Source: Salipiger sp. H15
GTDB lineage: Bacteria; Pseudomonadota; Alphaproteobacteria; Rhodobacterales; Rhodobacteraceae
Assembly: GCF_040409955.1 (NCBI RefSeq)
Contig: NZ_CP123385.1
Location: 851,501 to 915,500 of the forward strand
Reading direction: 5' to 3'
Length of the DNA stretch: 64,000 bases
The notes under the pieces are model-generated. The model saw only the letters and a list, made by a program, of their open reading frames with translations, was not told the origin of the DNA and ran no database searches. The position numbers and the translations under genes are program-made. How positions within the stretch are numbered: position 1 is the stretch's first letter; each line of letters begins with the position of its first letter. Of this stretch, positions 490 to 18,580 are shown one piece after another.

Positions 490-500
490 GATGGAGCCTC

Positions 501-4079: not shown

Positions 4080-4837
4080 GGGTTCACCTCCACGAAGCCA
4101 CCGTCGCCGACCTCATCCTCGAAGACCTCGCGGAATTCCCAGCTGTAGGTCCAATCCGCAATCCCGGGCTGCATCGACTGCGGGATGCTGACCGGTCGGA
4201 AGACGCCCGTGTCCCGCGACTGGAGGTTCACCCGGACATCCGTCATCGGGCTCGGCGCATCGTGAAGACGGACCACCGCCACACCTGCCGCGTTCGAATA
4301 GGCTGGCGCGAGAACCCGGTAGGTCATACCCACCGCATCGCCATCGTCCGCGAAGAGCGTGACGAACTCCGACGGCTTCGCCACGAGCGCGTTGGCAGGC
4401 ACCCCGGTAACGGTGATGATCGGCCAGCCCGCAGCATCGGTCCCGGTGGTGCAGGTCAGGCGCGTGCCGGTATCCCAGAGCATCTCGGCGCCGCCTGCGG
4501 CCCAGTCGAGCTCTGCACCTTCCGTTTCCCACTCAAGGCGGGTCAGCTGCAGAAGATTGGACGCCAGCCCACCGCGCGGATTGATCCTGCAGCTGTAGAG
4601 GCGGACACAATGCTGACCGCCCTTCAGAAGCTCGATCAGGCTCTCGACGTATCCCGCCCCCATCCGGTTCTTGCCAAGCGCCGCGACATCGAGCTTCGCG
4701 ATCCTGCGCCGGCGCTGAGCTGCCGAGAGGTAGTCGGCCCCCGTGATCAATGACCGGCTCTGCTCGATCGGATCAAGCAAGGTCCACATCCAACCGTGCA
4801 GCGAAACCGGTGGCCAGGCATAGACATTGACGCTCAT
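4070..4837 (-). CDS. Phage distal tail / minor tail protein
   Basis: 255 residues beginning MSVNVYAWPPVSLHGWMWTL. It lies immediately after the tape measure gene, where siphophages encode the distal tail protein that joins the tube to the tip. It is a beta-rich, tryptophan-rich protein with no catalytic motif. The C-terminus (DWTYSWEFREVFED) looks like the conserved end of minor tail proteins that recognise phage DNA or the tube end. It overlaps the tape measure stop by 4 bases (ATGA type) and the next gene by 10. Identification is by gene order and general character. Confidence 0.55.
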   Translation of the reverse strand: MSVNVYAWPPVSLHGWMWTLLDPIEQSRSLITGADYLSAAQRRRRIAKLDVAALGKNRMGAGYVESLIELLKGGQHCVRLYSCRINPRGGLASNLLQLTRLEWETEGAELDWAAGGAEMLWDTGTRLTCTTGTDAAGWPIITVTGVPANALVAKPSEFVTLFADDGDAVGMTYRVLAPAYSNAAGVAVVRLHDAPSPMTDVRVNLQSRDTGVFRPVSIPQSMQPGIADWTYSWEFREVFEDEVGDGGFVEVNPWR

Positions 4838-7107
4838 CGCAGCGGGCTCTCGGCATTGGAGGCATAGACGGCGCGCACGGCATCGGCCGCGAGCTGCCCG
4901 CGGCGCTCTTCGATCGCCCGCGAAATCTGCTCGGCGACACCCATCTGGGCGCCCCGCGCGTCGATGTTGACGGCTTGATGCACCGTGGTCGATTTCCCCG
5001 AGCCCACCTGCGCGCGGACGCCAAGCTTGCCGTCAGAGCCGCGACGGAGCGGCAGGATTGCCTCGTCGTCGAGCCCCTCGCCCAGCACCCCTGTCCGCCC
5101 GTCCCCCATGGGGAAATAGGTCGCGCTGTCGAAGACCCCGCCCTTGGCGAAGGGCACGACCTGGCCGCCGCCGAACGCATTGCCTTTCGCGTTGGCGAGC
5201 AATCCGCCAAGCCAGCCGAAGACACCGCCCCCACTGATCCCTGCGAGGCTGCTCAGCCCGCTCGAAATCTGCGCCTGAGCGATCTGCGCCACGAGGTTCA
5301 GAAGCGCTTCCTTAGCCGTCATCGACCCGTCGATGATCGAGCCGAAGAGGTCGGTCATTGCATCCTTCCCAAGCTCCGCCTGATCCTGCAGCCTCTCCAG
5401 GCGATCCGCGTTCTCGTCGGCCGCAAGGGCCGCGTTCATGTAGGCCATCGCCTGCTGCTCGATCTGCCGTGTCAGCTCCGGCGTGATCTCGGCACCGGAT
5501 TTCTGTGCCGCCGCCAGCAGCTCGGCCCGCTTGCGCGCGAACTCCATCGCATCACCGAGCTCCGTGCCGTACTGCGCCGCGACCAGCAGCGAGGCCGACT
5601 CCGCCTCGAGGCGCGCGATTTCCTCGCGGGTTCCCTCGAGCGCGGTTTCCCAATCGCTTTTCTTCTCGCCGCCGCCGGACTTGCCCTTGGGTGCTTCTGG
5701 AACGCCGAAGCTGAAATCGACACTCGGAAGTTGCGGGCGCGGCGAGGACGTCGGCGCGTGCTCTCCCGGAGGCAATTGGAAATCGACCGGTCCTTCCGGC
5801 GCCTGCGTCATGCCGGGCGATCCGCCGGGAAGGTTCCGGCGAAGCTCGGCCGCACGGCTTGTTGCCTCTCCCAGCGATCTCGCCAAGCCGCCGATCTGCC
5901 CGATGACCGTCGAGAACGTGCCGCGGTCGATCTCCTCGATTTCCGCAAGCGCCTCGGACGCCTTCGTCGTGGCCTCGCGCATCCCGGTCTCGAAGTCGGA
6001 CGCGCTCACCGTCCCATCCCGGAGGCCCTGGTCGAGCTCGAGCATCTGGTCGCGCGCCTCCATGATCGCTGCGGCGGCATCCGCGTAACCGAGCGCTTTT
6101 AGCGCAACGACCGCCTGGTCGAGCGACGGACGCAGCCGTGCTGCCTCCTCCCCGAGCCGACCATATTCGGCACTCAGCGCGCCCAGGCTCTCGGCCTGCG
6201 CGTCCGTCATCGCGGTGAGATCGGAGAGGCCATCGTAGATTTCATCCCCGAGCACCGCGCGGCCCTGCGCCTCGTCCGGGAAGATTTCCTTGAGCCGGGT
6301 CTCGACCATGTCGAAGGGGATGTCGGCAAGCGCGACCGCGAGACCCTTCGCCCAGGTCGACGCCTTGTCCATCATGCGCGAGAACTCGGCGTCGATCCGC
6401 TGCGCCTTGGCCACCAGCTCGGCATCCATGACGAGGCCCATCTCCTTGGCCTGATCCATCATCAGGCGAATGCCGGTCTCACCCTTTCCCAGCAGCTCGA
6501 CAAAGCGCTCGCCGCCCGTCCCGCCAAAGACCTCGTCGGCGACCCTGATCTGCCCGGCGCGGTCGAGGTCTTCCATGCGCCCGATGATCTCGAGCAGGAG
6601 CTCCTCGGGCTTCTCGAGCTGGCGCTGCAGGTCCGCCGCGCTGAGCCCGAGGCGCGCGAAGGCATCGGCGGCGGAGCCCTTGCCGGTCACGATGAACTCG
6701 TCGGCGCGCAGGCTGAGTTCCTTCATTCCATCGACGAGGGCATCGACCGGGATACGCGACTGGCTTGCGACATAGCTCAGCTGCTGGAAGGCCTCGACGC
6801 CGAGACCGGAGCGCCGCGCCTCGTCGCCGATCTGCGAGATCGCGCGAACGCCCTCACGCACGTTGCTCGTGAGCACACCGACCGCGGTTGCAGCAGCACC
6901 GGCGACGAAGGCCTTCGTCAGGTTGCCAACGCTGGCGGCCGCCTTGCTGAGGTTGCTGTCCATGTCCCGCGCCATCTTCGACGTGTTCTGGCCGGCATCG
7001 CGCTGAAGCCGTGCGATGAGCTTGTTGTTCCGGTCCATGGCGCGGGCGAAATCCTTGTCCCGCGCCTGCAGGAGGATCGTGATGCGCTCGAGTTCTTCGT
7101 CAGCCAT
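4834..7107 (-). CDS. Tail length tape measure protein
   Basis: 757 residues. The N-terminal part (residues 1-75) is predicted coiled coil, followed by a hydrophobic alanine-rich segment (about 75-100). A long helical central region with a Gly/Pro-rich break near residues 420-470 leads to a C-terminal region like the lambda tape measure C-terminus: DLFGSIIDGSMTAKEALL, then glycine-rich hydrophobic segments, then FAKGGVFDSATYFPMGDG. Tape measure proteins set tail length and help eject DNA. At about 1.5 angstrom per residue, a tail of roughly 110 nm would be expected. The ATG overlaps the stop of the tail chaperone extension (TGA at 7100..7102). Confidence 0.85.
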   Translation of the reverse strand: MADEELERITILLQARDKDFARAMDRNNKLIARLQRDAGQNTSKMARDMDSNLSKAAASVGNLTKAFVAGAAATAVGVLTSNVREGVRAISQIGDEARRSGLGVEAFQQLSYVASQSRIPVDALVDGMKELSLRADEFIVTGKGSAADAFARLGLSAADLQRQLEKPEELLLEIIGRMEDLDRAGQIRVADEVFGGTGGERFVELLGKGETGIRLMMDQAKEMGLVMDAELVAKAQRIDAEFSRMMDKASTWAKGLAVALADIPFDMVETRLKEIFPDEAQGRAVLGDEIYDGLSDLTAMTDAQAESLGALSAEYGRLGEEAARLRPSLDQAVVALKALGYADAAAAIMEARDQMLELDQGLRDGTVSASDFETGMREATTKASEALAEIEEIDRGTFSTVIGQIGGLARSLGEATSRAAELRRNLPGGSPGMTQAPEGPVDFQLPPGEHAPTSSPRPQLPSVDFSFGVPEAPKGKSGGGEKKSDWETALEGTREEIARLEAESASLLVAAQYGTELGDAMEFARKRAELLAAAQKSGAEITPELTRQIEQQAMAYMNAALAADENADRLERLQDQAELGKDAMTDLFGSIIDGSMTAKEALLNLVAQIAQAQISSGLSSLAGISGGGVFGWLGGLLANAKGNAFGGGQVVPFAKGGVFDSATYFPMGDGRTGVLGEGLDDEAILPLRRGSDGKLGVRAQVGSGKSTTVHQAVNIDARGAQMGVAEQISRAIEERRGQLAADAVRAVYASNAESPLR

Positions 7108-7332
7108 ACCGCTTCACCAGTTCCTCGTATTCATCCACGCTCGGCGGCGCGACCTCCCCGGACGCATCCTGCTGTGCCTGGTTCCATGCCTCGATCAGAA
7201 GGGAGGTTTCCTGCGGCGTCAGGCCCCGGACTTCCGCCGGAAGACGGCCCATCACACCGCAGATGTTCAGAACCCGCTCCCGGGCGCCGTAGTGGGTTCG
7301 GGGCCGCTCTGTGCCCCGGGCGATCCAGCCTC
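7100..7332 (-). CDS. Tail assembly chaperone C-terminal extension (T part), reached by -1 frameshift
   Basis: This open frame has no start of its own. It continues from the A9 run in the preceding gene in the -1 frame: ...KKKRGWIARG, then a helical domain with GRLPAEVRGLTPQE and ending VDEYEELVKRYG. The GRLPAEV-x4-TPQE segment resembles tail assembly chaperones of gene-transfer-agent and roseobacter phage type. The stop codon lies within the overlap with the tape measure ATG. In lambda, gpG and gpGT are made from the same arrangement and bind the tape measure before tube assembly. The frame relation and slippery run are seen directly; that frameshifting occurs is inferred. Confidence 0.75.
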
Positions 7333-7674
7333 TTTTTTTTTGTCCGCCTCGAGGACGGCGGGAATGAATGCCACCCCCAGAACCCGCTGCGCGATCTGGC
7401 GCAGCCGCATGTTCTCCGACGGCGGCAGGTCCGCGACGATCTCGTCGGCGGCGCGGTCGGACATGCCACCGCCCACCAGCGCGAGCGCGACCAGGTCGCG
7501 CACGTGCCGCACCTGCGGCCCGCGCGATACCTTGCCGAAAAGCTGATCCCAGAGTTCGAAGATGCCGAGATCGTGCTCCGCCTCGAAGCGCTCGATCTCG
7601 CCATTCCTGAGGACGAGACGGCGGAGCTTGCCGCCGACCTCCTCTTCGTAGACGCCGCTCTTCGCGATCGCCAT
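7267..7674 (-). CDS. Tail assembly chaperone (lambda G-like)
   Basis: 135 residues beginning MAIAKSGVYEEEVGGKLRRL. It lies between the major tail protein and the tape measure, the invariant site of the G/GT chaperone pair. The short conserved N-terminal sheet followed by helices (RHVRDLVALALVGGG, SENMRLRQIAQRV) fits the family. At residues about 111-113 the codons AAA AAA AAA make a slippery run; reading through in the same frame gives only a 22-residue Gly/Pro-rich tail, while a -1 shift adds the conserved C-terminal domain. The ATG overlaps the stop of the major tail gene by one base. Confidence 0.75.
   Translation of the reverse strand: MAIAKSGVYEEEVGGKLRRLVLRNGEIERFEAEHDLGIFELWDQLFGKVSRGPQVRHVRDLVALALVGGGMSDRAADEIVADLPPSENMRLRQIAQRVLGVAFIPAVLEADKKKEAGSPGAQSGPEPTTAPGSGF
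7333..7341 (-). promoter_or_regulatory. Slippery A9 run, probable programmed -1 frameshift site
   Basis: Nine consecutive A residues on the coding (minus) strand, read AAA AAA AAA in the frame of the tail chaperone gene. A -1 shift here joins the upstream frame to the open frame ending at 7100. It is the longest A run in the late operon and occurs in an otherwise GC-rich gene. Homopolymeric A runs are efficient slip sites for ribosomes, and also for polymerases, so transcriptional slippage is an alternative route to the same product. Confidence 0.75.
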
Positions 7675-8108
7675 CAGACTGCCACCTCGGGCGTGAAGGT
7701 CACCACGCCGGTCGAAGCCGCGGTCAGGCTGAAGGTCACGCCGCCGGACTGGTCCCCGCCGAAATCGCCTGACTGGATGAAGAACGATCCCGCGAAAGTC
7801 CCGAAGTTCGGCACGATGATCTCGGCATCAACCACCGGCGGGCTCGACATCGCAACCGATGCGAGGCGCGCCTCGGCGTTGTCCTTCTTGGAGATGCCGT
7901 TGCCCGAGAGCGAAACCCGCTTCACCCCGTCGAGCACCTCGGTCCAGAGCGCGCCGTTCGGCGCGGTGCAATCGGCGGTGGTGACGTCGATCTCTTCGTT
8001 GTTGATGGTGAGCGTCTTCGTGGTGAGCGCGCAGAGCGTCTCGAAGGTCGGCGATTCCTGCCCGTTGCTGAGCTTGATGAGGAGCGTGCGCCCCTTCTGT
8101 TTTGCCAT
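7674..8108 (-). CDS. Major tail (tube) protein
   Basis: 144 residues beginning MAKQKGRTLLIKLSNGQES. The pattern of a short basic start, then TFETLCALTTKTLTINNEEIDVTTADC, is typical of siphophage major tail tube proteins of the phi13/TP901-1 type, which form the beta-barrel tube ring. A longer frame continues upstream to 8264, but the ATG at 8108 has an AGGAGG-like GGAGGCC and matches family length, so it was chosen. It sits between the tail completion protein and the tail chaperone. It should be the most abundant tail product. Confidence 0.75.
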   Translation of the reverse strand: MAKQKGRTLLIKLSNGQESPTFETLCALTTKTLTINNEEIDVTTADCTAPNGALWTEVLDGVKRVSLSGNGISKKDNAEARLASVAMSSPPVVDAEIIVPNFGTFAGSFFIQSGDFGGDQSGGVTFSLTAASTGVVTFTPEVAV

Positions 8109-8164
8109 GATGGCCTCCTGTGTTGGGAGATGGGCAGCCGCCCGGATCGCCTTGCCGAAGGGCG

Positions 8165-8578
8165 TTACGTGGCAACCGCGACAGCCGCCTCGAAGGCCAC
8201 GGTCGCGGTGTAGGTGTCGCCGGCCGAGGACCGGCTCACGGCATGGGTGAGATAGTCGCACCAATCGAGGGTGTAGCCGTCGAGCGCGAGCTCGGCGTCA
8301 TCGAGCGCCATGCGAACGGCATGGGCGATCTGCAGCGCCTCGACGCGGGCGGAGACGGGGCGCGAGTGACACTCCACCGAGAAGATGATCGAGTCGTCGG
8401 TGTAACAGCCGATCCGGTCCGCGCTGGCGTCCTGCCGGCCGAGATGGATGTAGGGAAACACGACATCATCCTGCGGCTCGACGAAGACGCGCCCCGAGAC
8501 CAGCGCCGCGACATCGGCGTCGGCCAGCAAGGCGAGCACCACGGCATCCTGAAGCGCAAGAACCGGACCGTCAGCCAC
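8165..8578 (-). CDS. Tail completion protein, DUF3168 family
   Basis: 137 residues beginning MADGPVLALQDAVVLALLADAD. The N-terminal helix plus VFVEPQDDVVFPYIHLG and the strand TYTATVAFEAAVAV fit DUF3168 proteins, which cap the tail tube and join it to the head (like lambda gpU or HK97 gp10 neighbours). It lies between the HK97 gp10-like gene, which it overlaps by 8 bases, and the major tail protein. No catalytic residues are expected. Confidence 0.75.
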   Translation of the reverse strand: MADGPVLALQDAVVLALLADADVAALVSGRVFVEPQDDVVFPYIHLGRQDASADRIGCYTDDSIIFSVECHSRPVSARVEALQIAHAVRMALDDAELALDGYTLDWCDYLTHAVSRSSAGDTYTATVAFEAAVAVAT

Positions 8579-8930
8579 TGAAGCTCTCCTTCACCGCCTT
8601 GTTGACCGCCCGCCTGACCCGCGCGCCGTGCTTCTTCCGCAGCACCTTAAGGGCCGGATTGACGAATGGTCGCGGGCCCCGATCGCCCTCGATGACCTTG
8701 GACTTCGGCCCGAAGTCCACCAGGTAGCTGCCATCGGGGTTCTGCGTGCCGGTGATCTTGTCGCGCTCGCGGCCGTCTTTCTCGACGTCGGCCCCCATCG
8801 GGATCAGCACCTTCGCAGTGCGCACGAGCTCCTCGCCGCTCTTGCGGTTGGCCGCGTCGACCTGATCCTTGACCCGGCGCTCCAGTTTCGAGAGCTTCCG
8901 CATCACCTTGTCAGCACCAATCACGGTCAT
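8571..8930 (-). CDS. HK97 gp10-like head-tail adaptor
   Basis: 119 residues from ATG 8930 (MTVIGADKVMRKLSKLERRV). The charged N-terminal helix, RTAKVLIPMGADVEKDG and the end RPFVNPALKVLRKKHGARV are hallmarks of the HK97 gp10 family, a tail-side component of the neck. The open frame continues upstream to 9140, but the upstream part overlaps the coding region of the next gene and has no family character. It is followed with an 8-base overlap by the DUF3168 gene. Confidence 0.8.
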   Translation of the reverse strand: MTVIGADKVMRKLSKLERRVKDQVDAANRKSGEELVRTAKVLIPMGADVEKDGRERDKITGTQNPDGSYLVDFGPKSKVIEGDRGPRPFVNPALKVLRKKHGARVRRAVNKAVKESFSG

Positions 8931-8931
8931 C

Positions 8932-9303
8932 TCAGGCCTCCCAATCCGGGGCATTGACCCACTCTTCACAGGTGAGCTCGAGGACATCGGCCCGCGCCTG
9001 CGACCGTGCGGGCGTGCTGCGGATTTTCCAGACCGCACCCCGCCCGACGAGCCGGTCAGCGGCAGTGACCTGGCGCGCGAGCGGCCCGTCCTTGATGCGC
9101 ACCACGGCCCGTCGCACCGCCTCATCGCGCCCTGCAACAAGGCTTTCGCTGCCCGGCTGCTCGGCGAAATCGGCCCAGAGCTGCAGCGCCACGCCGGGCT
9201 CGACCTCGAGGTTCGCCCAGCCGGTCACCACCACGCCAGGGCGCGGAGTTCCTTTTGCCTTGCGCTGGACCGTGATGCGATCACTCAGGCGCCCACCCGC
9301 CAC
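8932..9303 (-). CDS. Head closure / head-tail joining protein (SPP1 gp16-like)
   Basis: 123 residues if started at GTG 9303, one base after the stop of the connector gene. The sequence GGRLSDRITVQRKAKGTPRPG, with the later WADFAEQPGSES and WKIRSTPARSQAR, is characteristic of phage head closure proteins, short beta barrels that seal the portal channel. The frame extends upstream to 9450 without a credible family match, so GTG is preferred; no ATG is available nearby. The gene order connector, closure, gp10, completion protein is the canonical neck block. Confidence 0.7.
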   Translation of the reverse strand: MAGGRLSDRITVQRKAKGTPRPGVVVTGWANLEVEPGVALQLWADFAEQPGSESLVAGRDEAVRRAVVRIKDGPLARQVTAADRLVGRGAVWKIRSTPARSQARADVLELTCEEWVNAPDWEA

Positions 9304-9304
9304 G

Positions 9305-9877
9305 TCAGCACCCCGCCGACACGTTCGGCCGCACGTACCGCGCCTGCCGGATGAGACGCTGCACGCTGAAGGACGCGCGCGGGGTCTGGATGTCGCCCGA
9401 GACACTGATGTCGGCCTCCCGCCATTCCCGCGCCAGGGCGACGACCGCACGCCAGAGATTGCGCGGAAAGACCCCGCCGATCTCGGCCTGGATGCGCAGG
9501 GTCCGACCCGCTTCGTTCGCCGCCCACCGCTCCGGCAGGAGCAGCTGCGGCTCGTCCTCGCCCTGCACCAGCATCACGCCGTCAAGCGCCTGGTCGACCC
9601 ACGCCCCGCTGTAGTCGGTCACCGCGAGCGCCGAGATCGACGTCACGGGACAGCAGGGAAACCACCAGCGCCGCCAGCCGTAGAGCGGGTAAGTGAATTC
9701 GTAGAGGCCGGGCGCCGGGGGAATGTTCGCCGCCGTGGTGACCACGTCCTGCGCAGCGCCGAGCAGCAGCTCGATCGAGCTGCGCTCGGCCGCGTCCGGC
9801 ATCTCGCCATGCACGGCATTGATGAACTGATCAACGCTCACCACGGGCGTGATGTCGTCTTCCCCGATATAGCGCAT
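9305..9877 (-). CDS. Head-tail connector protein (HK97 gp6-like)
   Basis: 190 residues beginning MRYIGEDDITPVVSVDQFINAV. Such proteins are mostly helical and form the ring below the portal. The segment SIELLLGAAQDVVTTAANIP, and the later LPERWAANEAGRTLRIQAEIGG, match connector proteins that combine a helical N-terminus with a small beta domain. At 190 residues it is longer than the minimal gp6 (about 100), as is usual for alphaproteobacterial phages. A 15-base gap separates it from the preceding small gene. Confidence 0.7.
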   Translation of the reverse strand: MRYIGEDDITPVVSVDQFINAVHGEMPDAAERSSIELLLGAAQDVVTTAANIPPAPGLYEFTYPLYGWRRWWFPCCPVTSISALAVTDYSGAWVDQALDGVMLVQGEDEPQLLLPERWAANEAGRTLRIQAEIGGVFPRNLWRAVVALAREWREADISVSGDIQTPRASFSVQRLIRQARYVRPNVSAGC

Positions 9878-9892
9878 GCGCCCGGCCCTCTC

Positions 9893-10192
9893 TTACTTGC
9901 GGCCCTTGCCCTGGACGGGCGGAGCGCCTGCATCGGCAGCGGTATCGGTCTGTGAGCCCGCGCCTTCGCCCGCCTTGGGCTCGCCGCCCTCTTCACCCTG
10001 ACCGCCCTGGGACGCGCCGGGCTCATCACCGCCCACCTGCGCCGCCACGTCGGCGGGCAGCTCGGGCATCGGTGCATTCGGGTCGCGCGCGATCCCCGCT
10101 GCGATCAGCTTGTCCGCGTGATCGTCGGGGAAACCGGCCGTCTCACCACGCTGGTACATCAGGTGGGTCCGGTTGAACTTCACCACCTTCAT
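9893..10192 (-). CDS. Small phage head-region protein, unknown function
   Basis: 99 residues. The N-terminal 45 residues (MKVVKFNRTHLMYQRGETAGF) look folded and resemble short ORFs that often sit between capsid and connector genes in siphophages. The C-terminal half is low-complexity, rich in Gly, Glu, Ala and Pro, and probably disordered. Its ATG overlaps the stop of the upstream gene (ATGA). No enzymatic motif is seen. It could be a minor head or decoration-associated protein; no firm function can be assigned. Confidence 0.55.
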   Translation of the reverse strand: MKVVKFNRTHLMYQRGETAGFPDDHADKLIAAGIARDPNAPMPELPADVAAQVGGDEPGASQGGQGEEGGEPKAGEGAGSQTDTAADAGAPPVQGKGRK

Positions 10193-10644
10193 TGCGGCAG
10201 ACGGTCCATGCCGCCGCAGACCAGCACGGCCGAAAGCGCTGCGGTGTCGGTGCCGCTGGCGCTGAGATCGGGCGTGTAGCCGAGACGGACGTAGCGACCG
10301 CAGGCGCGGAGCTTCACGTCGATCTCGAGGCAGCCGGTGACGGTGCCGCCGCCGGTCGGGCCGGTCGCCGCGACCACGGTCTCGGTCACCAGCGTGATAG
10401 CGTCCGACAGGTCGCTCTCTTCGCCCTCTTCGACGGTATACGCGACGCTCAGCGTCTCGCCCGCGGCGAGGGTGGCGGTGAACGGGATCGCGAGCACGCC
10501 GGACTGCGGCATGCCGATCTCGGCGCGGTCGACGATGGCGCCCGCCACCGCGGTTGCGTCCCCGGCACCGCCCGCGGTCACCGCGGCGTTGCCGGCGGCG
10601 CGCAGCACTTTCATAAGCGCGCCGATGTCCTTCATTTGCATCAT
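10189..10644 (-). CDS. Phage head-region protein, possibly decoration protein
   Basis: 151 residues from ATG 10644 (MMQMKDIGALMKVLRAAG); a TTG five codons upstream is a possible but weaker start, and GAGG lies upstream of the ATG. After a short helix, the rest is beta-rich and Ala/Thr/Val-rich (GVLAIPFTATLAAGETLSVAYTV), as in capsid decoration or fibre-like proteins. It lies directly after the major capsid gene with a 65-base gap. The decoration role is an inference from position and composition. Confidence 0.5.
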   Translation of the reverse strand: MMQMKDIGALMKVLRAAGNAAVTAGGAGDATAVAGAIVDRAEIGMPQSGVLAIPFTATLAAGETLSVAYTVEEGEESDLSDAITLVTETVVAATGPTGGGTVTGCLEIDVKLRACGRYVRLGYTPDLSASGTDTAALSAVLVCGGMDRLPQ

Positions 10645-10709
10645 GGGATCAGTCCTCAAAAGGATGTGGAGACGGGCGCGAACGCCCGCCCTTTGATCAT
10701 CGTCGGGAG

Positions 10710-12029
10710 TTACTGGTCAGCCCAGGTCACGCCGGTCATCACGGCGACCGCCGGCAGATGGCGCAGGCCGAGATCGTGCTGCATGATCATGCGCATCAGC
10801 GTCTCGTCGCGGCTGAAGGACGACTGCAGCTGGCCGTTGTCGTCACGGTAGGCCGCCTGGTCGGACATCGCGATGGTGATGCCCATGTGCTCGCCGATGA
10901 CGACGTGCATCGGGTGCACCAGCATGATCTCCGACTCGTTGCCGCCCGCGCCGAGATTGGACGGCATCTCGGTGGTGACATGCACCGGCTTGCGGCGCAG
11001 CTGCCCGCCCGCCATCTCGGGGAACGCCTTGTTGCCGTTGCCGTCGACGAGGTTGGTCAGGAACATCGCGGTGCGCGGCGACATGATCCAATGCGCGCCC
11101 ATGTAGGGAACGTTGGCATTGGCCAGCGCCAGCTCCATGCGGCCGAGGTTGCTGTTGACCGCCTGCACGGTCGCGCCACCGGTCATCGCGAGGATGTTGG
11201 TCGCGGCCGCGGCAGTGCCGAGCAGCTGGAAGCGCAGACCTTTCGGCGCGAACTCGGTGCCCTGGCCGCGCAGGAAGTAGCGGTCCTGGATCTGCGCCGC
11301 ATCCGCGATCGCGTCATCCCGCACCATACGATCGACGGCGGTCGAGGCGGTGCGCAGCAGGTCGTTCGAGATCGGGATGATCCCGCGCATCTTCTTCGCC
11401 GAGAGCTTCATCTGGCCATAGGCGTAGCCGGTCACCGGCGCGTCCGAGACCTCGTCGCCATAGCCGAAGTTCGCACCGCTGGCGCGGCGGTTCTGGGTCA
11501 TGTTGCCATCGGGCATCGGCACGATGCGGGGCCCCATGGCGGTCACGACGCTCGCCGGGCGCAGCAACTCGATCACCTCGGAGCTGACGTCCTCGGGAAC
11601 GAGGAAGCCGCCGGCCGCGGCCGAGGACACGTTCTGCGCCGAGAAGAGCCCGCTTTGGCCGTTCTCCTCCGCGATGACGCGGGCCGTGTGGACGTTGCCG
11701 CCCGCCGCCGCGAGGGTGCGGAGCATGGCGCCGAACTGCAGCCCCTTCTCCTTCGGCTGCGCCGCGGTGGTGCGGGGCGCGTCCGGCTCGGAGCCGGGCT
11801 CGGGCACCGCCGCCGAGGCGCTCGCCGCTTCGACCTCCTCGGCGCGCTTCACCTGGCGATCCGCCTTGTCGAAGGCAGCCTTGGCCACGTCGAATGCCGC
11901 CTGCGCGCCCTGCACCGCCGCCTCGTCGGCGCTCTCCTGGTCTTCGAGCGCGGTCAGAGCATCGGCCTTGGCCTGCATGTCATCCGCCGCGGCCTTGCGA
12001 GCGCGGCGCAGGTCGTTGATATCGCCCAT
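10710..12029 (-). CDS. Major capsid protein, HK97 family
   Basis: 439 residues from ATG 12029, which has an AGGAG ribosome site; the open frame continues to 12119 without merit. Residues 1-110 form a charged coiled coil, the scaffolding delta domain removed by the prohead protease, followed by an Ala/Pro/Glu linker. The mature part begins near residue 120 and shows the HK97 pattern: GGFLVPEDVSSEVIELLRP, then KKMRGIIPISNDLLRTAS, and WIMSPRTAMFLTNLVDGNG. It follows the protease and portal genes as in HK97-type heads. It is on the same operon as all other late genes. Confidence 0.92.
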   Translation of the reverse strand: MGDINDLRRARKAAADDMQAKADALTALEDQESADEAAVQGAQAAFDVAKAAFDKADRQVKRAEEVEAASASAAVPEPGSEPDAPRTTAAQPKEKGLQFGAMLRTLAAAGGNVHTARVIAEENGQSGLFSAQNVSSAAAGGFLVPEDVSSEVIELLRPASVVTAMGPRIVPMPDGNMTQNRRASGANFGYGDEVSDAPVTGYAYGQMKLSAKKMRGIIPISNDLLRTASTAVDRMVRDDAIADAAQIQDRYFLRGQGTEFAPKGLRFQLLGTAAAATNILAMTGGATVQAVNSNLGRMELALANANVPYMGAHWIMSPRTAMFLTNLVDGNGNKAFPEMAGGQLRRKPVHVTTEMPSNLGAGGNESEIMLVHPMHVVIGEHMGITIAMSDQAAYRDDNGQLQSSFSRDETLMRMIMQHDLGLRHLPAVAVMTGVTWADQ

Positions 12030-12148
12030 GTTCAGTTCTCCTGTCTGGTGGGCACCGCGCGATCCGCGCAGCAGAAAGACCCCGCCGCGCACCGGCAGGG
12101 CAGTCTCAGGCCGCGGCACGCGCCGAGGCCGGATTTCGGAAAGTCAGG

Positions 12149-13075
12149 TCAGCTCGCGAGCCGGGCTGCCGCTGCGGCGGCGAGTGCCTGCGCCCGCGCG
12201 CCACGTCCGGCCGGCCGGGTCGGGCGCGGCGCGTAGGCAGCGCCGATGCGATCCCAGAAGGCGCGCAACGTCTCGAGACGATCCACGAGGCCGCGAGACC
12301 GGGCATCCTCGCCCCAGAAGATCGCGCCGCCGTCGGCGGGATCGTCGGTCACCGAAAGCCGCTCGGGCAGCTCGGCGAGCGGGATGCCCCGCCCGGCCGA
12401 CACGGCGGCGTGGAAGTCCGCCTCCATCGCGTCGAGACCACGCAGGATTTCGGTGCGGCCCTCGTCGCTCGACGGGTCAGGGCGCTTCGCGCGGGCGTTC
12501 GACGAGGTGATGATGAAGGTCTGCTCACCGAAGAGGCCCGGCTGCATCGGCGCGGCGTCAATCCGCATGCAGCCGATCGAGCCCACGATGCTGCCCGGGG
12601 TCAGCGAGATGTCGGTCGCCTGACTGGCGATGTGATAGCAGGCCGAGGCCGAGAGCGGATGGACCAGTGCATGCACGGGCTTGACTGCCTTCGCGGCCGC
12701 GACGGCCGCCGCCGCCCCGGCGATCCCGAGGACATAGCCGCCCGGGGAGTCGCAGAGCAGAACGATCGCCGCGACATCCTCGTTCGCCGCCAGCTCTTCC
12801 ATGGTCGCCTCGAGGCCATGATAGGTCGACCAGCCGAGCCAACGCTCGAGCAGGAACTGGTTCGGCGTCAGCAGGCCGCGCAGCGGCACGATCGCCACGT
12901 TGCGGCTGATCGCATAGCGCTCGCCCGGCTCGAGGCGGACCGACAGCGCGGTCTCGACTGCTTGCGGCGCCCCCTCTCCGCCCGGCATGGCCATCTGCAG
13001 GAGCGGCGCGCCGTGGGTCCGCGAGAGCGCAAGCGGCGTGCAGGCGAAGAGGCTCGCAACGGTCTGAACGGTCAT
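12149..13075 (-). CDS. Prohead protease, S49/ClpP-like (SppA family)
   Basis: 308 residues. The S49 pattern is clear: IVLLCDSPGGYVLGIAGAA, then PLSASACYHIASQA, where the Ser of SACYHIA is the expected nucleophile, and SIVGSIG. The lysine partner probably lies in the segment NARAKRPDPSSDEGR. These phage enzymes cleave the scaffold domain of the capsid protein during head maturation. The C-terminal 40 residues are Ala/Arg-rich and possibly a scaffold-like tail. The ATG overlaps the portal stop (ATGA), and a 119-base gap precedes the capsid gene. Confidence 0.85.
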   Translation of the reverse strand: MTVQTVASLFACTPLALSRTHGAPLLQMAMPGGEGAPQAVETALSVRLEPGERYAISRNVAIVPLRGLLTPNQFLLERWLGWSTYHGLEATMEELAANEDVAAIVLLCDSPGGYVLGIAGAAAAVAAAKAVKPVHALVHPLSASACYHIASQATDISLTPGSIVGSIGCMRIDAAPMQPGLFGEQTFIITSSNARAKRPDPSSDEGRTEILRGLDAMEADFHAAVSAGRGIPLAELPERLSVTDDPADGGAIFWGEDARSRGLVDRLETLRAFWDRIGAAYAPRPTRPAGRGARAQALAAAAAARLAS

Positions 13076-14349
13076 TCGTCGTCTCCTTCGGGTGCAGGAC
13101 GCGCCGGCTCCGCGCGCGTCATGTTGGGGGCCGGGTTGAGCTGCGCGCCCTCATCGACCGGCGCGAGACCAAGCTTCGTGCGCGCCTCGTTCGGCCGCAT
13201 GAAGGGCCCGCCGACCGCGCGGTTCAGCGCCTCGTATTGCTCCTTCACCGTCGGCTGCAGCAGCGCGCCGAAGTCATGGCGCAGGAAGAGACCCGCCTCG
13301 CGCTCGGCGCGGGTCAGCAGCGCCACGTCGAGTTGCGCCTCGACCAGCGCCGACCAGTGCAGCAGGCAGTCGGTCAGGTAGTCGATGGCCTGCTGCTCGC
13401 CATTGGCCTTCACGCCGTACTCGAGCATCTGAAGCTTGCTCGGCGGCATGCGGTAGATGCCTGCGATCATCTCGCGATCGAACTTGCGGCTGGACAGCAG
13501 TTCCTGATCGGCGGCCGAGATGTCGAGCGCCTTCACGTCCTCGTCGGGGTTGGTGACGATCCAGCCGTCTCCCGAGGGATCGGTCATCGTGCCCTTGATG
13601 CGGCGGGCGTTGCGGGTGCGCTGCTCCTCGCTCTCGTAGTTGTCGCCGAGCTTGATCACGCCCTTGGTGGTGCCGCCGGCAGCGTTGCGCGCCGCGGCGC
13701 GCTGGCCAGCGAGCGCAATCCCGACGCTCTCGGCCGCGACATGGATCGGGCTGCGCCCGGTCCAGCCATCTTCGGCCATGTAGCGCAGGTGCACCATCGC
13801 CCGGGCGGGAACGCGGCGCTGTACCCCTGCCCCGTCCTCGAACTGGTAGAAGCGCTCGAGCCCGTCGCGCAGGATGGCCACCGAGCCCTGGCGCACGATG
13901 TCGAGCCGCATGAGCTCGCCGCCCCCGTCACGCGGCCCGTAGATGTGACCGTTGCCGCGCAGCGCGTAGGCGTAGACGGCGGCAAAGCGCACCAGGCGCG
14001 CCGGAACACCGGGAGCGGCCTCGCCGTTCAGCAGCTCGGCCACGGCGTGCTGGCGCACCCGCACATCCTGCCCGTCAGCTCGTCGCTGCCAGAGCTTCAG
14101 GGGCACCTTGGCGAGATCGCCTGCGATATTGTTGCAGCAGGCGAAGACGGTGCCGTGATGGACCGCGGACTCTGGCGTCACGCGCGGCAGGCCGCGGACG
14201 GATGCGGACGGGCCGAGCGAGCCCCAGCCCACGGCCAGCAGCCCCTCGTTCCCGCCCGACACCACCGCCGGCGCCGAGATTGGCGGCTCGACGCGCGCGG
14301 CAGCCGCGGCCCCGCCAGCCCGGGAGATGTGCAGTCCGAAGAGCTTCAT
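13072..14349 (-). CDS. Portal protein, HK97 family
   Basis: 425 residues. Portal proteins form the dodecameric DNA gate at one capsid vertex. The family pattern is seen: VHHGTVFACCNNIAGDLAKVPLK, then HGNGHIYG-like GNGHIYGPRDGG, the segment GWTGRSPIHVAAESVGIAL, and the C-terminal LDVALLTRAEREAGLFLRHD. It overlaps TerL upstream and the protease downstream by ATGA junctions, so stoichiometry is probably set by coupling. Length is typical for the family (about 400). Confidence 0.92.
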   Translation of the reverse strand: MKLFGLHISRAGGAAAAARVEPPISAPAVVSGGNEGLLAVGWGSLGPSASVRGLPRVTPESAVHHGTVFACCNNIAGDLAKVPLKLWQRRADGQDVRVRQHAVAELLNGEAAPGVPARLVRFAAVYAYALRGNGHIYGPRDGGGELMRLDIVRQGSVAILRDGLERFYQFEDGAGVQRRVPARAMVHLRYMAEDGWTGRSPIHVAAESVGIALAGQRAAARNAAGGTTKGVIKLGDNYESEEQRTRNARRIKGTMTDPSGDGWIVTNPDEDVKALDISAADQELLSSRKFDREMIAGIYRMPPSKLQMLEYGVKANGEQQAIDYLTDCLLHWSALVEAQLDVALLTRAEREAGLFLRHDFGALLQPTVKEQYEALNRAVGGPFMRPNEARTKLGLAPVDEGAQLNPAPNMTRAEPARPAPEGDDE

Positions 14350-16013
14350 ACGATCACCACGTCCCTTGCCTTGCGTTTCTCTTCGCCAACCTCGGCGCGG
14401 CCCACCGCCATGATCGCGGCGACGGCCGGGTCGATCCGGCCGGTGGCCTTCTTCTTGTTCGGTTTCACGTTCTCGGCCGCGTCCTGGTCGAGGATCACGT
14501 TGCCCACCGCCCAGGCGAGCAGCGGGTTGCCATTGTGGCGCAGCCGGTTCTGGATGACCGCGCGCTCGAAGCGCTTGGTGGCCGGCGACATGCTGGCATA
14601 GCCCTGGCCAAACTCGAGGAGCGGGAAGCGCATCTTGTCGAGCTCGCCCGCCACGTACTTCATGCCCCAGCGGTCATAGGCGACCTCCTGGAGATCGAAG
14701 CGCGCCCTGATCCATTTCATCCGCTCGATGACCTGGTCCTCGTCGATCACCCCGCCCCGGTGCACCTCGAGCCAGCCATCGTCGCGCCAGGCGACATAGT
14801 CCCGGTTCTCCGACTGCGCCCGCGCCACGAAGCCCTTCGGGCCCTCCGCGATGAACGCGAAGCACAGCAGGTAGATCACCCCGTCGACCGGCACGGCGAC
14901 GACGATCGAGGTGAGGTCTGTAGTCCGGCTGAGGTCGAGGCCGACCCAAGCCTTGCGCCCGAAGAGCTGCTCGAGCTTGAACGGTGCCGTGGCCATGCCG
15001 CCATCCCAGACGTCCCGGGCAATCCAGCTCTGCTCGCCCTCGGTCCAGAGGTTGAGGTGCAGGCGCCGGAAGTTCGGCATCTTGCCGCGGATCGCCTGCG
15101 CCTCGTCATGGATGCGCCGGAAGTCCGCCTCGGTGAAGGCCACCCCGAGGTTCGGGTTCGCCATGGCCCAGGTGGCCGGGTCCGAAGGGTCAGCATCCTC
15201 GGGCGGCTCAGCCACGAACCCGAAGAAGCTGTCGTCGCGCACATCGCCGCGCATCACCCGCTCGGCATAGCCGCGAATTTCCCCGCAGAGGCTCGCCCTG
15301 TCGGCGCCGGCCGTGGTGATCGCCCAGTCGATCGGCTGCGAGCGCGCGATCATCGAGTTGGTCACCACGTCGGCCAGCTCTCGGTCCGTCCAGCGGTGCA
15401 CCTCGTCGCGGGCCGCAAAATGCGGGTTGATCCCGTCGGCGCTGTTCCCGTCGCGGCTCAGCGCCGCGATGTAACCATTGGTGCGCGGCGACTGGATCTG
15501 CGTCTTGTAGACGTCGAGCAGCTGCGAGAGCGCTGAAGACCCGCGGATCATCCGCTTGATCTCGTTGAAGAGCAGCCCCGCCTGATCTCGTGTCGTCGCG
15601 GCGCAATAGCCCTGCGGCGCCCCCTCTCCGTCAAAGAGCTGGGTGTAGAGCATCGGCACCGCCGTGTCGGTGGTCTTGCCGTTCTTCTTCGCCACCTGGT
15701 GGTAGGTTGAGCGGAACCGCCGCAGCCCGGTCTCGGCGTGCTTCCAGCCGAAGACCGAGCCGTGCCGGAAGACTTGCCAGGGCTGCAACGTCAGCGCCGC
15801 CCCGGCCATGGACCCGGTGGTATGCCGCAGCACGCTCGCGAAGCGGATCACCATGTCCGCCGCTCCGGTGTCGAAGACGAGGCCACGATCGGCGCCGGTC
15901 TCGAGGTCTAGCAGGTGACGCTCGCAGGCCATCCGGACCAGCGGTCCGGCGAGCACCTGGTCCTCGATCACGTCGAGGGCGTACCGGCTCACCGGGTGGT
16001 CAATTGCCTCCAC
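14346..16013 (-). CDS. Terminase large subunit (ATPase/nuclease)
   Basis: 555 residues from GTG 16013, which overlaps the small-subunit stop by 14 bases; the frame continues to 16073 but that part overlaps TerS. The packaging ATPase shows Walker A as KKNGKT near residue 100 and Walker B as FAARDEVHRW near 195. The nuclease part begins WVGLDLSRTTDLTSIV around residue 345, with the first acidic residue in LDLS. This is the P27/HK97-type terminase found with cos or 3'-cos packaging. It cuts and translocates the phage genome into proheads. Confidence 0.9.
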   Translation of the reverse strand: MEAIDHPVSRYALDVIEDQVLAGPLVRMACERHLLDLETGADRGLVFDTGAADMVIRFASVLRHTTGSMAGAALTLQPWQVFRHGSVFGWKHAETGLRRFRSTYHQVAKKNGKTTDTAVPMLYTQLFDGEGAPQGYCAATTRDQAGLLFNEIKRMIRGSSALSQLLDVYKTQIQSPRTNGYIAALSRDGNSADGINPHFAARDEVHRWTDRELADVVTNSMIARSQPIDWAITTAGADRASLCGEIRGYAERVMRGDVRDDSFFGFVAEPPEDADPSDPATWAMANPNLGVAFTEADFRRIHDEAQAIRGKMPNFRRLHLNLWTEGEQSWIARDVWDGGMATAPFKLEQLFGRKAWVGLDLSRTTDLTSIVVAVPVDGVIYLLCFAFIAEGPKGFVARAQSENRDYVAWRDDGWLEVHRGGVIDEDQVIERMKWIRARFDLQEVAYDRWGMKYVAGELDKMRFPLLEFGQGYASMSPATKRFERAVIQNRLRHNGNPLLAWAVGNVILDQDAAENVKPNKKKATGRIDPAVAAIMAVGRAEVGEEKRKARDVVIV

Positions 16014-16437
16014 GAAGCTGCCGCAGGAGATCGTCGAAGAGATCGCCCTGCGCCCCCGAGCTGAGGCGCGCATCGTCCACCGGCGTCATGCCGAAAAGCG
16101 CGCCGAGCTGGCGCATGTTCGCCAGCGCATCCTGCCGTGCCTGCCAGTTCGCCGTCTTCTTCTGCTGCATGCCGTTGCGCGTCTTGACGGCGTAAGTGCG
16201 GCCCTCGAGCGCGATATTGCTGGTCAGCTCGATGACGTCGGCCACCGCTTCGCAGTAGGCGGCGAAGATGTCCTCGAAGTGCGGCTTGAGCCGGTCGAAC
16301 TTGACCAGCTCGGGCGCGAGACGCTCCCACACCGCCTTGGCGGGCTCGGACATGAGATCGTGCGCCGCGGGAATCGGCTTGGGCATCTCCTCCCGCATCG
16401 GCACCACGTTATCCATGTTCGGCTTCCGCCCCTTCAT
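16000..16437 (-). CDS. Terminase small subunit, P27 family
   Basis: 145 residues beginning MKGRKPNMDNVVPMREEMPKP. The short basic start (KGRKP) and the region AKAVWERLAPELVKFDRLKPHFEDIFAAYCEAV are characteristic of P27-type small subunits, which recognise the packaging site and recruit the large subunit. A strong AGGAGG lies upstream of the ATG. It follows the HNH gene and overlaps TerL. Confidence 0.85.
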   Translation of the reverse strand: MKGRKPNMDNVVPMREEMPKPIPAAHDLMSEPAKAVWERLAPELVKFDRLKPHFEDIFAAYCEAVADVIELTSNIALEGRTYAVKTRNGMQQKKTANWQARQDALANMRQLGALFGMTPVDDARLSSGAQGDLFDDLLRQLRGGN

Positions 16438-16543
16438 GGTCTACCTCCTAATGCCCTGTCAGGTGGGCTTTTTTCTCCAATTTCGTCGGCGCAGAAAGAA
16501 AGGTGGGGGCGTCGGTTTGGGCCCTCCACCCGAGATTTTTGAC

Positions 16544-16927
16544 CTACCCCCGGTCCCCGTGGAAAACCTCGCGGGCCGTCTTCCGGCTGTGGCAGCGATG
16601 GCACAGGGCCTGCCAGTTCGACCGATCCCAAAAGAGCGACCGGTCGCCCTTGTGCGGAACCACGTGGTCGACGTCGGTCGCGGGCTCGACAACGCCGAGC
16701 TCCGCGCAATCGACGCAGCACGGATGCCGCTGAAGGAAGAGCCGCGCCGCCTTCTTCCACCGGGGATCGGCGTAGAGCGCTCGCGCGGCGGCAGCGTGAG
16801 GCGTGGCCTGCGCCGCCGCCTTCTGCCCTGCCCGCTTCCGGTCCTGTTCCGCCTGGTGCTCGGCGCAGCGCGCCTTGCCGATGACCGCTATCTCTTCGCA
16901 GCCGGGCGCAGCGCAGAGCTTACGCAT
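16544..16927 (-). CDS. HNH endonuclease (packaging-associated)
   Basis: 127 residues. The N-terminus has a zinc-knuckle-like pair (LCAAPGC...CAEH) and the C-terminal 60 residues carry the HNH core: CCVDCAELG, then DVDHVVPHKGD with the catalytic His, WDRSNWQALCHRCHSRKT with Asn and His. Phage HNH nucleases in this position, directly before TerS, are needed with terminase for cos-type cleavage in HK97-like phages. This supports cos packaging. It is the first gene of the late operon. Confidence 0.85.
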   Translation of the reverse strand: MRKLCAAPGCEEIAVIGKARCAEHQAEQDRKRAGQKAAAQATPHAAAARALYADPRWKKAARLFLQRHPCCVDCAELGVVEPATDVDHVVPHKGDRSLFWDRSNWQALCHRCHSRKTAREVFHGDRG

Positions 16928-16986
16928 CGCCGTGCCCGGCTGCTGCCTTGGGGAAGAGGTCCATGCCTATGGTCTAGAAACGACAA

Positions 16987-17008
16987 AGCCCCGCACGTTG
17001 GCGGGGCT
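16987..17008 (-). terminator. Hairpin terminator between NusG-like gene and late operon
   Basis: A perfect 8-bp GC-rich stem (AGCCCCGC / GCGGGGCT) with a 6-base loop. Read on the minus strand it is followed by TTTGTCGTTT, a moderate U tract, as in intrinsic terminators. It lies about 110 bases downstream of the promoter at 17122..17151 and about 60 bases upstream of the HNH start, so any transcript into the late genes must read through it. Confidence 0.6.
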
Positions 17009-17121
17009 CGGGGCACAGTGAAGGCGTGTCAGATGTGGCGTCAAACCCATCCTCGCCGCCCACCCGCTCCGGTATCTGTCCCTCTGAGGGAGAGCACTCG
17101 GAGCATAAGGCCTGTTCGGGC

Positions 17122-17151
17122 AACATAGAAATCGCCACGCCGCGCTGTCAA
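17122..17151 (-). promoter_or_regulatory. Putative late promoter (TTGACA, 18-base spacer, TATGTT)
   Basis: On the minus strand, TTGACA (17151..17146) overlaps the TGA stop of the NusG-like gene; after 18 bases comes TATGTT (17127..17122). The -35 matches the sigma70 consensus fully and the -10 in four of six. Transcription would start near 17115 and meet the hairpin at 17008 before reaching the late genes. The leader also holds the palindrome TCCCTCTGAGGGA near 17087. Confidence 0.6.
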
Positions 17152-17813
17152 CTCTCTTTCGCAGCCAGCCCCACGAGCGTGTCGCCCGTGGTGGTGACAG
17201 AGTTCTCCCGACCGAAGAGCTCGAAGCGCACTTTGATGCCGCCCGCGGCGTCGATCTCGACAACCTCGCACTGGAACCCTTCGAGCGGCCCGGTCCGGAA
17301 CATTGCCCGGTCACCGGCACGCACGCGCCGCGCCGCTGCGGCCTTCCGCTTCTGTTCCTGGCGCTCGTCTTCCTGCCGGAGGTCACGCGCGCGCATCTCG
17401 TGCAGCGCGGCCAGACGCTTCGAGCCAAGAACACCCCACCTCCCATCCGACCGGCAGAGCGCGCCGGTGAGGAAGGGCGAGGTCAGGACCCGGTGCGGAA
17501 CCGGCACACCGCCGAAGCGCGCGAAGACATAGCCCGGCAGGTACCGGCGCTCGTATTCTCGGACGTGCCCGCGCACCCTGGTCCGCCGCGAGGTCACCGG
17601 ATGGAAGGCGTAAACGCCCCGCGCCGCCAGCCAGCTCTCTGCCTGCCGCTCCTGCTGCGGGCGGCAGAGAAGCGCATACCAGGCGTTCTCGCCCGGATCG
17701 AAGATGGGGGCCGAGCTGCTCTCGGTTGGGACGGCATCGCCGATCCTAAGGCTGAGGTAGGAACTGACCATTGCGCGCTCTTTCCACTGCTCTTCCGACA
17801 ACGAGATGCTCAT
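17148..17813 (-). CDS. Phage NusG/RfaH-family transcription factor (putative late antiterminator)
   Basis: 221 residues from ATG 17813. An NGN domain is visible at about residues 48-130: NAWYALLCRPQQERQAESWL, then VYAFHPVTSRRTRVRG and RRYLPGYVFARF, the classic NusG core with the W-Y and P-G-Y-V-F signatures. After a charged helical linker (about 135-165) a KOW domain follows: VRAGDRAMFRTGPLEGFQCEV. NusG paralogues bind RNA polymerase and suppress pausing or termination at specific operons. Position is telling: last early gene, its stop overlapping a late-type promoter, followed by a terminator and the late genes, as for lambda Q. The family is clear; the antiterminator role is inferred. Confidence 0.8.
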   Translation of the reverse strand: MSISLSEEQWKERAMVSSYLSLRIGDAVPTESSSAPIFDPGENAWYALLCRPQQERQAESWLAARGVYAFHPVTSRRTRVRGHVREYERRYLPGYVFARFGGVPVPHRVLTSPFLTGALCRSDGRWGVLGSKRLAALHEMRARDLRQEDERQEQKRKAAAARRVRAGDRAMFRTGPLEGFQCEVVEIDAAGGIKVRFELFGRENSVTTTGDTLVGLAAKES

Positions 17814-18400
17814 GCGTTGCCCTCCTGCGCGGCCTCGACATAGCCCAGCACCTTCGCCTCGGTCTCGTCGTACATGGCGAGCCATTCCCCATCACCGTCG
17901 AAGGGCATGAGGCCGCGCGATATGCGATCCCGGACCCGCTCAACTTTCGAGGCGTGCTCGCTGGCGCGCCGCTCGACCGCCGCCTTCTCCCGGAAGCTGC
18001 TCGGCGGGCGCTTCTTTTCGGTCCAGAACTGGTACTCGGCGACCAGCCTGTTCCCAGCCAGCGCCTCGCGCCCGGCCACCGACCGAAACCAGCGCAGCAC
18101 GGCGGGCAACTCGCCGAGCGGACGCGGTTCTCGCGCCTCGGCGTAGCCCTCGAAGCTCGCCAGCTCAGGCCAGAAACACCGGGCCGAGCCCTGCCCCTTT
18201 GCCCGCATGCACTGCTCGAGCACACGCAAGCTCTCGTCCCCGAGGTAGCCCATGCTATCCGCGATCGCGTCGAGGCGCTTCACCTGCTCGGCATCCTCTG
18301 TCCCCTTCGGGAAGCGGAACCCGCGCGCCTGCAGCGGCGCGATCAGGAGCCTGCGCACCCGGTCACGGTTGGTCTCGGTGGTGGTCTGCTCGGTGGTCAT
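17810..18400 (-). CDS. Conserved phage early protein, unknown function
   Basis: 196 residues, beginning with a Thr/Glu-rich stretch then RDRVRRLLIAPLQARGFRFP. It is helical and charged, with no membrane segment, zinc site or nucleotide-binding motif recognised. The region LPAVLRWFRSVAGREALAGN suggests a compact helical domain. It lies between the TTCTGTC repeat region (18485..18569) and the NusG-like gene, whose ATG overlaps its stop (ATGA). In lambda this region holds replication genes, so a replication accessory role is possible but unsupported by motif. Confidence 0.55.
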   Translation of the reverse strand: MTTEQTTTETNRDRVRRLLIAPLQARGFRFPKGTEDAEQVKRLDAIADSMGYLGDESLRVLEQCMRAKGQGSARCFWPELASFEGYAEAREPRPLGELPAVLRWFRSVAGREALAGNRLVAEYQFWTEKKRPPSSFREKAAVERRASEHASKVERVRDRISRGLMPFDGDGEWLAMYDETEAKVLGYVEAAQEGNA

Positions 18401-18484
18401 TGCCAGCCCCTTCTCTCAGCACATCCTGAGTTATCCACAGGTGTCAGCGGTTGGTTTGAGGTCCGAGCGGAAATTTCTTTTCAT

Positions 18485-18569: not shown

Positions 18570-18580
18570 CGGTTGTTCTC

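Follow-up and report, generated by a model that had tools for sequence, protein, structure and literature searches.

The window, as we call the whole 64,000-nt stretch of DNA that was analyzed, corresponds to G000:C2:851501-915500 of a 6.1-Mb genome. Its left part is filled by a prophage, with an integrase gene at 26104-27156 and the early genes on the minus strand. The last gene of the early operon (17148..17813, minus strand) encodes a NusG-like protein of 221 amino acids, in which Pfam, PHROGs, and an AlphaFold2 model place an NGN domain, a long helix, and a KOW domain. The ATG of this gene shares bases with the stop codon of the preceding gene (17810..18400, minus strand), an early gene with no assigned function and with relatives in many loci. 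The late genes follow, also on the minus strand: profile matches identify the first as an HNH endonuclease gene (16544..16927) and the next two as the small (TerS, 16000..16437) and large (TerL, 14346..16073) terminase subunits. Genes for portal, protease, tape measure, tail, and tail fibre proteins (501..14349, minus strand) are presumed to be the remainder of the late operon inside the window, and together with HNH, TerS, and TerL they would constitute a single operon.

The prophage has several further features. Two genes 5' of the NusG-like gene (17810-18400 and 18581-19216, both minus strand) recur at that place in many loci, and searches of Pfam, PHROGs, and NCBIfam at the chosen limits gave no match for their products. 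A perfect inverted repeat, GTTCTGTCACACGTGACAGAAC, with similar half-sites nearby, lies in the intergenic DNA at 18548-18569, upstream of the 17810-18400 gene, and looks like an operator. The early part also contains a DNA methyltransferase-like open reading frame (PHROG 116; 22956-25361, plus strand). Inside the late operon there is a terminator-like hairpin at 12101-12079 (minus strand), which, if real, would require processive read-through.

The preliminary description of this DNA had assigned the last early gene to the NusG family, with NGN and KOW domains, and this assignment was borne out. Pfam NusG (PF02357) matched the NGN domain with an E value of 6.5e-7 and 30.2 bits against a cut-off of 22.2, and the protein matched PHROG 6386 ("transcription antiterminator") with an E value of 3.3e-24. 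The AlphaFold2 model (mean pLDDT of 82, pTM of 0.61) combines an NGN fold with a helix of 32 residues (131-162) and a KOW barrel with strands at 169-215, to which NusG C-terminal domains matched at a TMt of 0.75-0.76. The top Foldseek matches of the model were NusG and RfaH, the closest solved structures; whole-protein TM-scores were low, at 0.2-0.36, and the arrangement of the domains in the model is uncertain. In addition, LFGRE of the protein aligns with IFGRE of Thermotoga NusG. The protein fell below the models for housekeeping NusG (TIGR00922, 20.9 versus a cut-off of 135.7), RfaH (TIGR01955, 38.2 versus 144.5), LoaP (NF033641, 30.2 versus 125), and UpxY (NF033644, 41 versus 100), and no Q-type family matched it in Pfam at an E value of 0.1 or in PHROGs at 0.01. 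PF02357 matches three genes of the genome: two are of phage type and lie on C2, and the third, on C1, scores 92 bits and is presumably the housekeeping NusG. Because the genome has this higher-scoring copy on C1 as well as a second phage-type copy, the prophage gene is a paralogue. Its closest named relatives, among the matches listed, are from Salipiger and Alloyangia (Rhodobacteraceae).

For comparison, we gathered loci from species genomes (14), viral contigs (41), and whole-genome searches (4, one of them the window's own). Our count of 43 distinct loci excludes 15 duplicates with the same first 300 nt and L021, whose contig ends at the gene. The protein alignment A1 holds the query and 39 of 114 protein matches; a second, alignment-based protein search yielded 261 proteins, the additional ones lying outside the comparative set. 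L046, whose leader is nearly that of L045 and L047, was omitted from the alignments, and L054 to L057, which are without this leader, were omitted from the leader alignment.

A sigma-70 consensus scan of positions 16400-18700 gave a single site (shuffled mean of 0.2), with a -35 box, TTGACA (17146..17151, minus strand), that overlaps the TGA stop codon of the NusG-like gene and, after a spacer of 18 nt, a -10 box, TATGTT (17122..17127, minus strand). From the position of the -10 box, transcription is predicted to start at 17115 on the minus strand. In 39 of the 43 distinct loci, the window included, exactly 18 nt separate a TTGAC box from a downstream TAnnnT (38 loci) or TAnnnC (1 locus), and in 35 of these 39 the stop codon falls within the -35 box. 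The recurrence of one spacing in so many distinct loci takes the promoter beyond chance. The four loci without it are the distant L054 to L057. Thus, the TTGACA promoter that had been described as overlapping the stop codon and pointing to the late genes was seen, and promoter-like boxes at this spacing are common to most relatives. Information was highest in the -35 and -10 boxes (2.02 and 1.40 bits per column), followed by the leader (0.88), and the spacer had the lowest value measured (0.22). The same consensus scan found no sigma-70-like promoter on the minus strand in 1-17000; because of this, the late operon is probably transcribed either from the 17151-17122 promoter or by polymerase reading through from the early operon, and either route would cross the leader and the terminator.

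Downstream of the promoter is a conserved leader of about 110 nt, which runs from 9 to 13 nt past the -10 box to the terminator and aligns in 38 sequences. In the window, it occupies 17009..17117 (minus strand) and matches our RNA model, R1, with 103 bits. Helix H1 is formed by GCCU (17108..17111) and GGGC (17058..17061), with 98.7% of its cells paired over the 38 sequences, and closes a P1/P2 hairpin (17066..17104); helix H4 (GGCG/CGCC) carries a covarying hairpin, P3, with a conserved GGUU..ACGC loop (17023..17057; all minus strand). H1, P1, H4, and P3 came from RNAalifold, and P2 and one H4 pair were added by hand. The palindrome near 17087, proposed in the preliminary description as a recognition element, is real (17104-17066), but it is only the first hairpin of this larger conserved RNA.

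In the leader alignment (A4, 38 sequences), 90.7% of 935 base-pair cells form, compared with 74.0% in shuffled alignments and 37 to 48% in slid controls. The covariation score was 0.475, versus 0.198 shuffled and at most 0.113 slid, and cells with both sides changed numbered 149, versus 53 shuffled. A structure derived from the same sequences tends to beat its slid versions, and kin sequences can beat shuffles. Given these caveats, the case for the fold rests on the size of the difference and on the both-side changes. Pairs with both sides changed occur in P3 (five), P1 (five), P2 (four), and H1 (two), with none in H4; in H1, a change of GCC to GAC or GCU is matched by a change of GGC to GUC or AGC on the far strand. 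After realignment to R1, which leans the alignment to the model, 94.3% of cells were paired and H1 paired in all 38 distinct rows. G-U pairs make up 128 of the 935 cells, and this share, together with the nested helices, indicates that the leader would act as RNA rather than as a DNA palindrome. No Rfam (release 15) family matched within the window at its gathering score; against 16900-17200, only isrJ and mir-266 appeared, both under their gathering scores. By its covariation, the leader is a folded RNA, absent from the Rfam release searched. Because the leader covaries as RNA and holds 0.88 bits per column to the spacer's 0.22, the whole folded leader, rather than a single palindrome, is probably the recognition element.

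The leader is followed by an intrinsic-terminator-like hairpin of 9 pairs, 7 of them GC (16986..17009, minus strand; from folding and comparison), with a T-rich tail, TGTCGTTTCT, at 16976..16985 (minus strand). An intrinsic-type hairpin before HNH, TerS, and TerL had been noted earlier and is present at 17009-16986. The T-tracts behind the hairpins are interrupted, in the window as elsewhere. The result that we rely on is from a positioned test, which required a hairpin that starts within 25 nt of the RNA end, reaches -14 kcal/mol or better, and has five or more T among the nine bases that come after it. Such a strong hairpin was found in 28 of 38 loci, compared with 7 of 380 dinucleotide shuffles; looser settings gave 29/38 versus 21/380 and 28/38 versus 29/380. 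Two other tests were set aside for this one, namely, a perfect-stem-only test (24/38, versus 11% of mononucleotide shuffles) and a permissive hairpin test (31/38, versus 44/152 dinucleotide shuffles). L007 and L025 have a terminator-like hairpin only about 40 nt further on, the hairpin of L050 is weaker, and L044 and L047 keep the stem with just three T behind it. Five of the 38 loci (L011, L014, L028, L034, and L053) had no terminator-like hairpin by the tests applied; L053 and others could have a bulged hairpin. Of all the elements, the terminator has the weakest comparative support.

Promoter, leader, and gene are kept together in 39 of the 43 distinct loci, with protein identity falling as low as about 41%; the conserved leader that the preliminary description had suggested looking for in related prophages is therefore present, along with its promoter. 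Of 60 sources, a number that includes the 38 training sequences and duplicates, 55 had one R1 match each, and the five misses were L021, which ends at the gene, and L054 to L057. The window's own genome contains two phage-type NusG-like genes and two R1 sites, each RNA beside one gene. Among family samples, the gene was found in 3 of 295 genomes and the RNA in 3 of 394, and these were the same three genomes; the system is rare (3/295 family genomes). A class-wide search of 385 genomes placed the gene in one, the window's own, and the RNA in two, the window's own and G733. The G733 match (28.6 bits) was discarded as chance: the stretch inspected has no TTGAC promoter-like box, the surrounding frames look bacterial by eye, and the class-wide protein search placed the gene in the window's own genome only.

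A protein-blind scan of viral contigs for the leader pattern gave 68 loci, 19 of them with R1 matches of at least 60 bits. Each of the 19 strong matches has a NusG-like gene upstream of it on its own contig, and 17 are on contigs known from the protein search. On two of these, L119 (contig of L022) and L131 (contig of L019), gene and leader are separated by other DNA. The two new loci, L089 and L103, have the leader directly after the end of the NusG-like gene; for L103, only the last NusG residues are inside the locus and were read by eye. An RNA match in L126 (21.3 bits) was rejected, as it has no NusG-like tblastn match and looks like coding DNA by eye. Searches by tblastn of INPHARED with proteins P0001, P0060, and P0101 gave no match, and P0115 gave two marginal matches (22% and 28% identity) in unannotated records; P0060 had none in PLSDB at 1e-10. 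Because INPHARED gave none or marginal matches and PLSDB none, no isolated phage with the system was found in these collections.

Over 703 pairs of loci, leader identity correlated with NusG identity (r of 0.72) more closely than with blastn coverage of the downstream 2.7 kb (r of 0.31), and the corresponding value for NusG and the downstream DNA was 0.33. L017 and L018 have NusG proteins 92% identical and leaders 98% identical, with no downstream similarity by blastn, and their large terminases match that of the window at 96% and 23%. The window and L002 likewise have NusG at 84%, leader at 92%, and no downstream similarity by blastn. The leader thus occurs before unrelated terminases. A second prophage-like locus of the same genome (G000:C2:74487-75292) has a NusG-like gene (84%) and the leader (92%), followed by late genes in which no DNA similarity was detected. 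The gene and the promoter of L004 and L005 are separated by other DNA, and promoter, leader, and hairpin are intact before HNH. The intervening DNA of L005, a Salipiger thiooxidans prophage, holds at 6046-7864 a pair of genes matching the PADLOC candidate defence system PDC-M07 (A, an AAA ATPase, and B); L004 has small open reading frames without matches at the corresponding place, between its NusG-like gene and late promoter. Since the leader tracks NusG and nearly the same leader precedes unrelated terminases, gene, promoter, and RNA seem to move as a module. In part, the link between leader and NusG could reflect their being neighbours.

The four distant loci differ. In L054, both the promoter and the leader of this type are missing. 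In L055, L056, and L057, the NusG-like gene lies upstream of large-terminase or portal genes and is followed by a different conserved element, GAGGCGGCGAAGANCAACAACAGCCGCACGG (L055:2960-3060, L056:5750-5840, and L057:5573-5670). L055 and L057 have a promoter-like site where the NusG-like gene ends, and L056 has one about 200 nt beyond that point. The element was not found outside these three loci, and three related sequences are too few for covariation; it is possibly a second type of leader RNA. If so, phage NusG proteins would pair with different RNAs. The L144 protein is 42% identical to that of L056, and directly after its gene is a leader-like match (23.3 bits, E value of 1.8e-4 in 61 kb) that looks like a shortened leader of the R1 kind.

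Taken together, the conserved layout and its tie to the NusG-like gene strongly favour a putative late antitermination switch, and we consider it likely that the locus encodes an RNA-guided, NusG-type switch for the phage late genes. In this switch, we infer a working promoter and terminator, protein-RNA binding, antitermination, and processive action. The promoter on the stop codon of the NusG-like gene would make a transcript whose first 110 nt or so fold into the conserved RNA. In the lysogen, transcription would stop at the terminator and yield a short leader transcript. Once the prophage is induced, the NusG-like protein would be made last from the early operon, its NGN domain would bind the clamp of RNA polymerase, and the nascent leader RNA would be bound through KOW or NGN. 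The leader RNA, just behind the polymerase when it is at the terminator, would thus recruit the NusG paralogue, and the NGN domain would keep the elongation complex from pausing and terminating, such that the polymerase reaches the late operon. We put somewhat better than even chances on a broader proposal, that this is an undescribed antitermination ribonucleoprotein by which Rhodobacteraceae phages use a NusG paralogue and its own large folded leader in place of a Q-type regulator, with L055 to L057 using a second leader and with protein and RNA diversifying as cognate pairs.

Other explanations account for parts of this layout. A promoter, a 110-nt structured RNA, and a terminator are exactly what a small-RNA gene would show, with the RNA acting in trans and the NusG-like gene a mere neighbour, and lambda's own leader makes a short RNA. 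However, the close pairing of RNA and NusG-like gene, the position before HNH and terminase that is kept even where DNA is inserted, and the finding of no other sigma-70-like promoter on the minus strand in 1-17000 make this unlikely. The RNA might instead antiterminate alone by touching RNA polymerase, like HK022 put, and leave the NusG-like protein a different or auxiliary role. A folded RNA at the extreme 5' end, directly before a terminator, would suit such a mechanism, but the late genes would then be on in the lysogen, no strong RNA match was found without the gene, and the lone 28.6-bit match has no visible promoter or phage context, so we regard this as quite unlikely. It is improbable that the protein binds promoter DNA and loads on the initiating polymerase in the manner of lambda Q or GafZ. 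Such regulators share the gene position and the promoter-terminator layout, and a GafZ site between -10 and -35 is described for an alphaproteobacterium in the part of PMC11150451 that deals with it; against this, the spacer is conserved far less per column than the leader, and the Pfam and PHROGs matches are of NusG type, with none of Q type.

The two remaining explanations concern the leader itself. As a self-contained attenuator or riboswitch, it would open or close the terminator by alternative pairing, and a conserved GYGYCC before the terminator can indeed pair with GGGU (in the minimum-energy fold of the window) or with GGGC of H1. Both of these alternative helices, the two candidates examined, have 0 both-side-changed cells, and we hold this mechanism to be highly improbable. 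Alternatively, the conserved palindromic DNA might be a packaging (cos or pac) site for HNH and terminase, given that in the window HNH-TerS-TerL follow it immediately and that many loci have HNH or terminase genes downstream of it. Near-identical leaders precede unrelated terminases and track NusG instead, and the G-U pairs and nested helices indicate RNA, so that we give this idea almost no credence.

The structured leader RNA paired with a phage NusG is the important feature of this locus, of which the preliminary description saw only one palindrome. The RNA-guided switch, if correct, would extend phage biology by a late switch of the NusG type and would contribute a structured RNA family absent from the Rfam release searched. 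It would also provide about forty natural pairs of NusG paralogue and structured RNA, most with a promoter-RNA-terminator reporter, in which cognate recognition is directly testable. In the PMC literature, with most subscription journals outside its scope, neither this RNA nor a phage NusG serving as late antiterminator was the subject of any paper that we found. The excerpt of PMC7593976 notes rfaH-like genes on prophages, and the parts of PMC7819879 and PMC8224337 examined contain nothing on phage-borne NusG. PHROG 6386 covers the same protein family as a library annotation only and names neither a leader RNA nor a target.

A close known arrangement of genes is that of lambda Q, pR', and tR', in which the regulator is likewise the last early gene and is followed by promoter, leader, terminator, and late operon. 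Lambda Q is not of the NusG family and is placed on DNA between -35 and -10, whereas the spacer here is without conservation, and we rejected recognition of DNA of the lambda Q type on this ground. The likeness to lambda Q drawn in the preliminary description therefore stands for position and layout (promoter and leader in 39/43 loci, strong hairpin in 28/38) but not for recognition, given the spacer at 0.22 bits per column and a leader that covaries. HK022 put shares a folded leader RNA near the promoter of a phage operon, and it serves early genes and needs no phage protein. RfaH is a NusG paralogue with the same domains that is recruited in a leader through ops, which the source excerpt presents as a non-template DNA element; scored against the 10-nt ops consensus, no leader of the 39 had fewer than 3 mismatches, the best site having 3 in 25 leaders and 4 in the other 14. 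GafZ, which antiterminates the phage-type structural operon of the Caulobacter gene transfer agent, also in an alphaproteobacterium, is proposed to attach to the promoter between -10 and -35 and to work together with host NusA, NusG, and NusE, and this description in the relevant part of PMC11150451 sets it apart from the RNA recognition proposed here. A precedent for the proposed mechanism comes from Bacillus, where LoaP acts with a small hairpin and a NusA-enhanced terminator to give read-through, as outlined in sections of PMC12691694. The dfn and mln leaders of Bacillus velezensis described there share with our locus a NusG paralogue, a leader with recognition RNA and an intrinsic terminator, and read-through of a long operon. 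The C-UNCG-G letters of a LoaP-type hairpin occur in just 2 of our 39 leaders and thus do not identify such a hairpin as a shared element. The LoaP target, as given in those sections, is one small UNCG hairpin before antibiotic operons, whereas the candidate target here is a five-helix, 110-nt RNA at the predicted 5' end of the transcript, before HNH and terminase.
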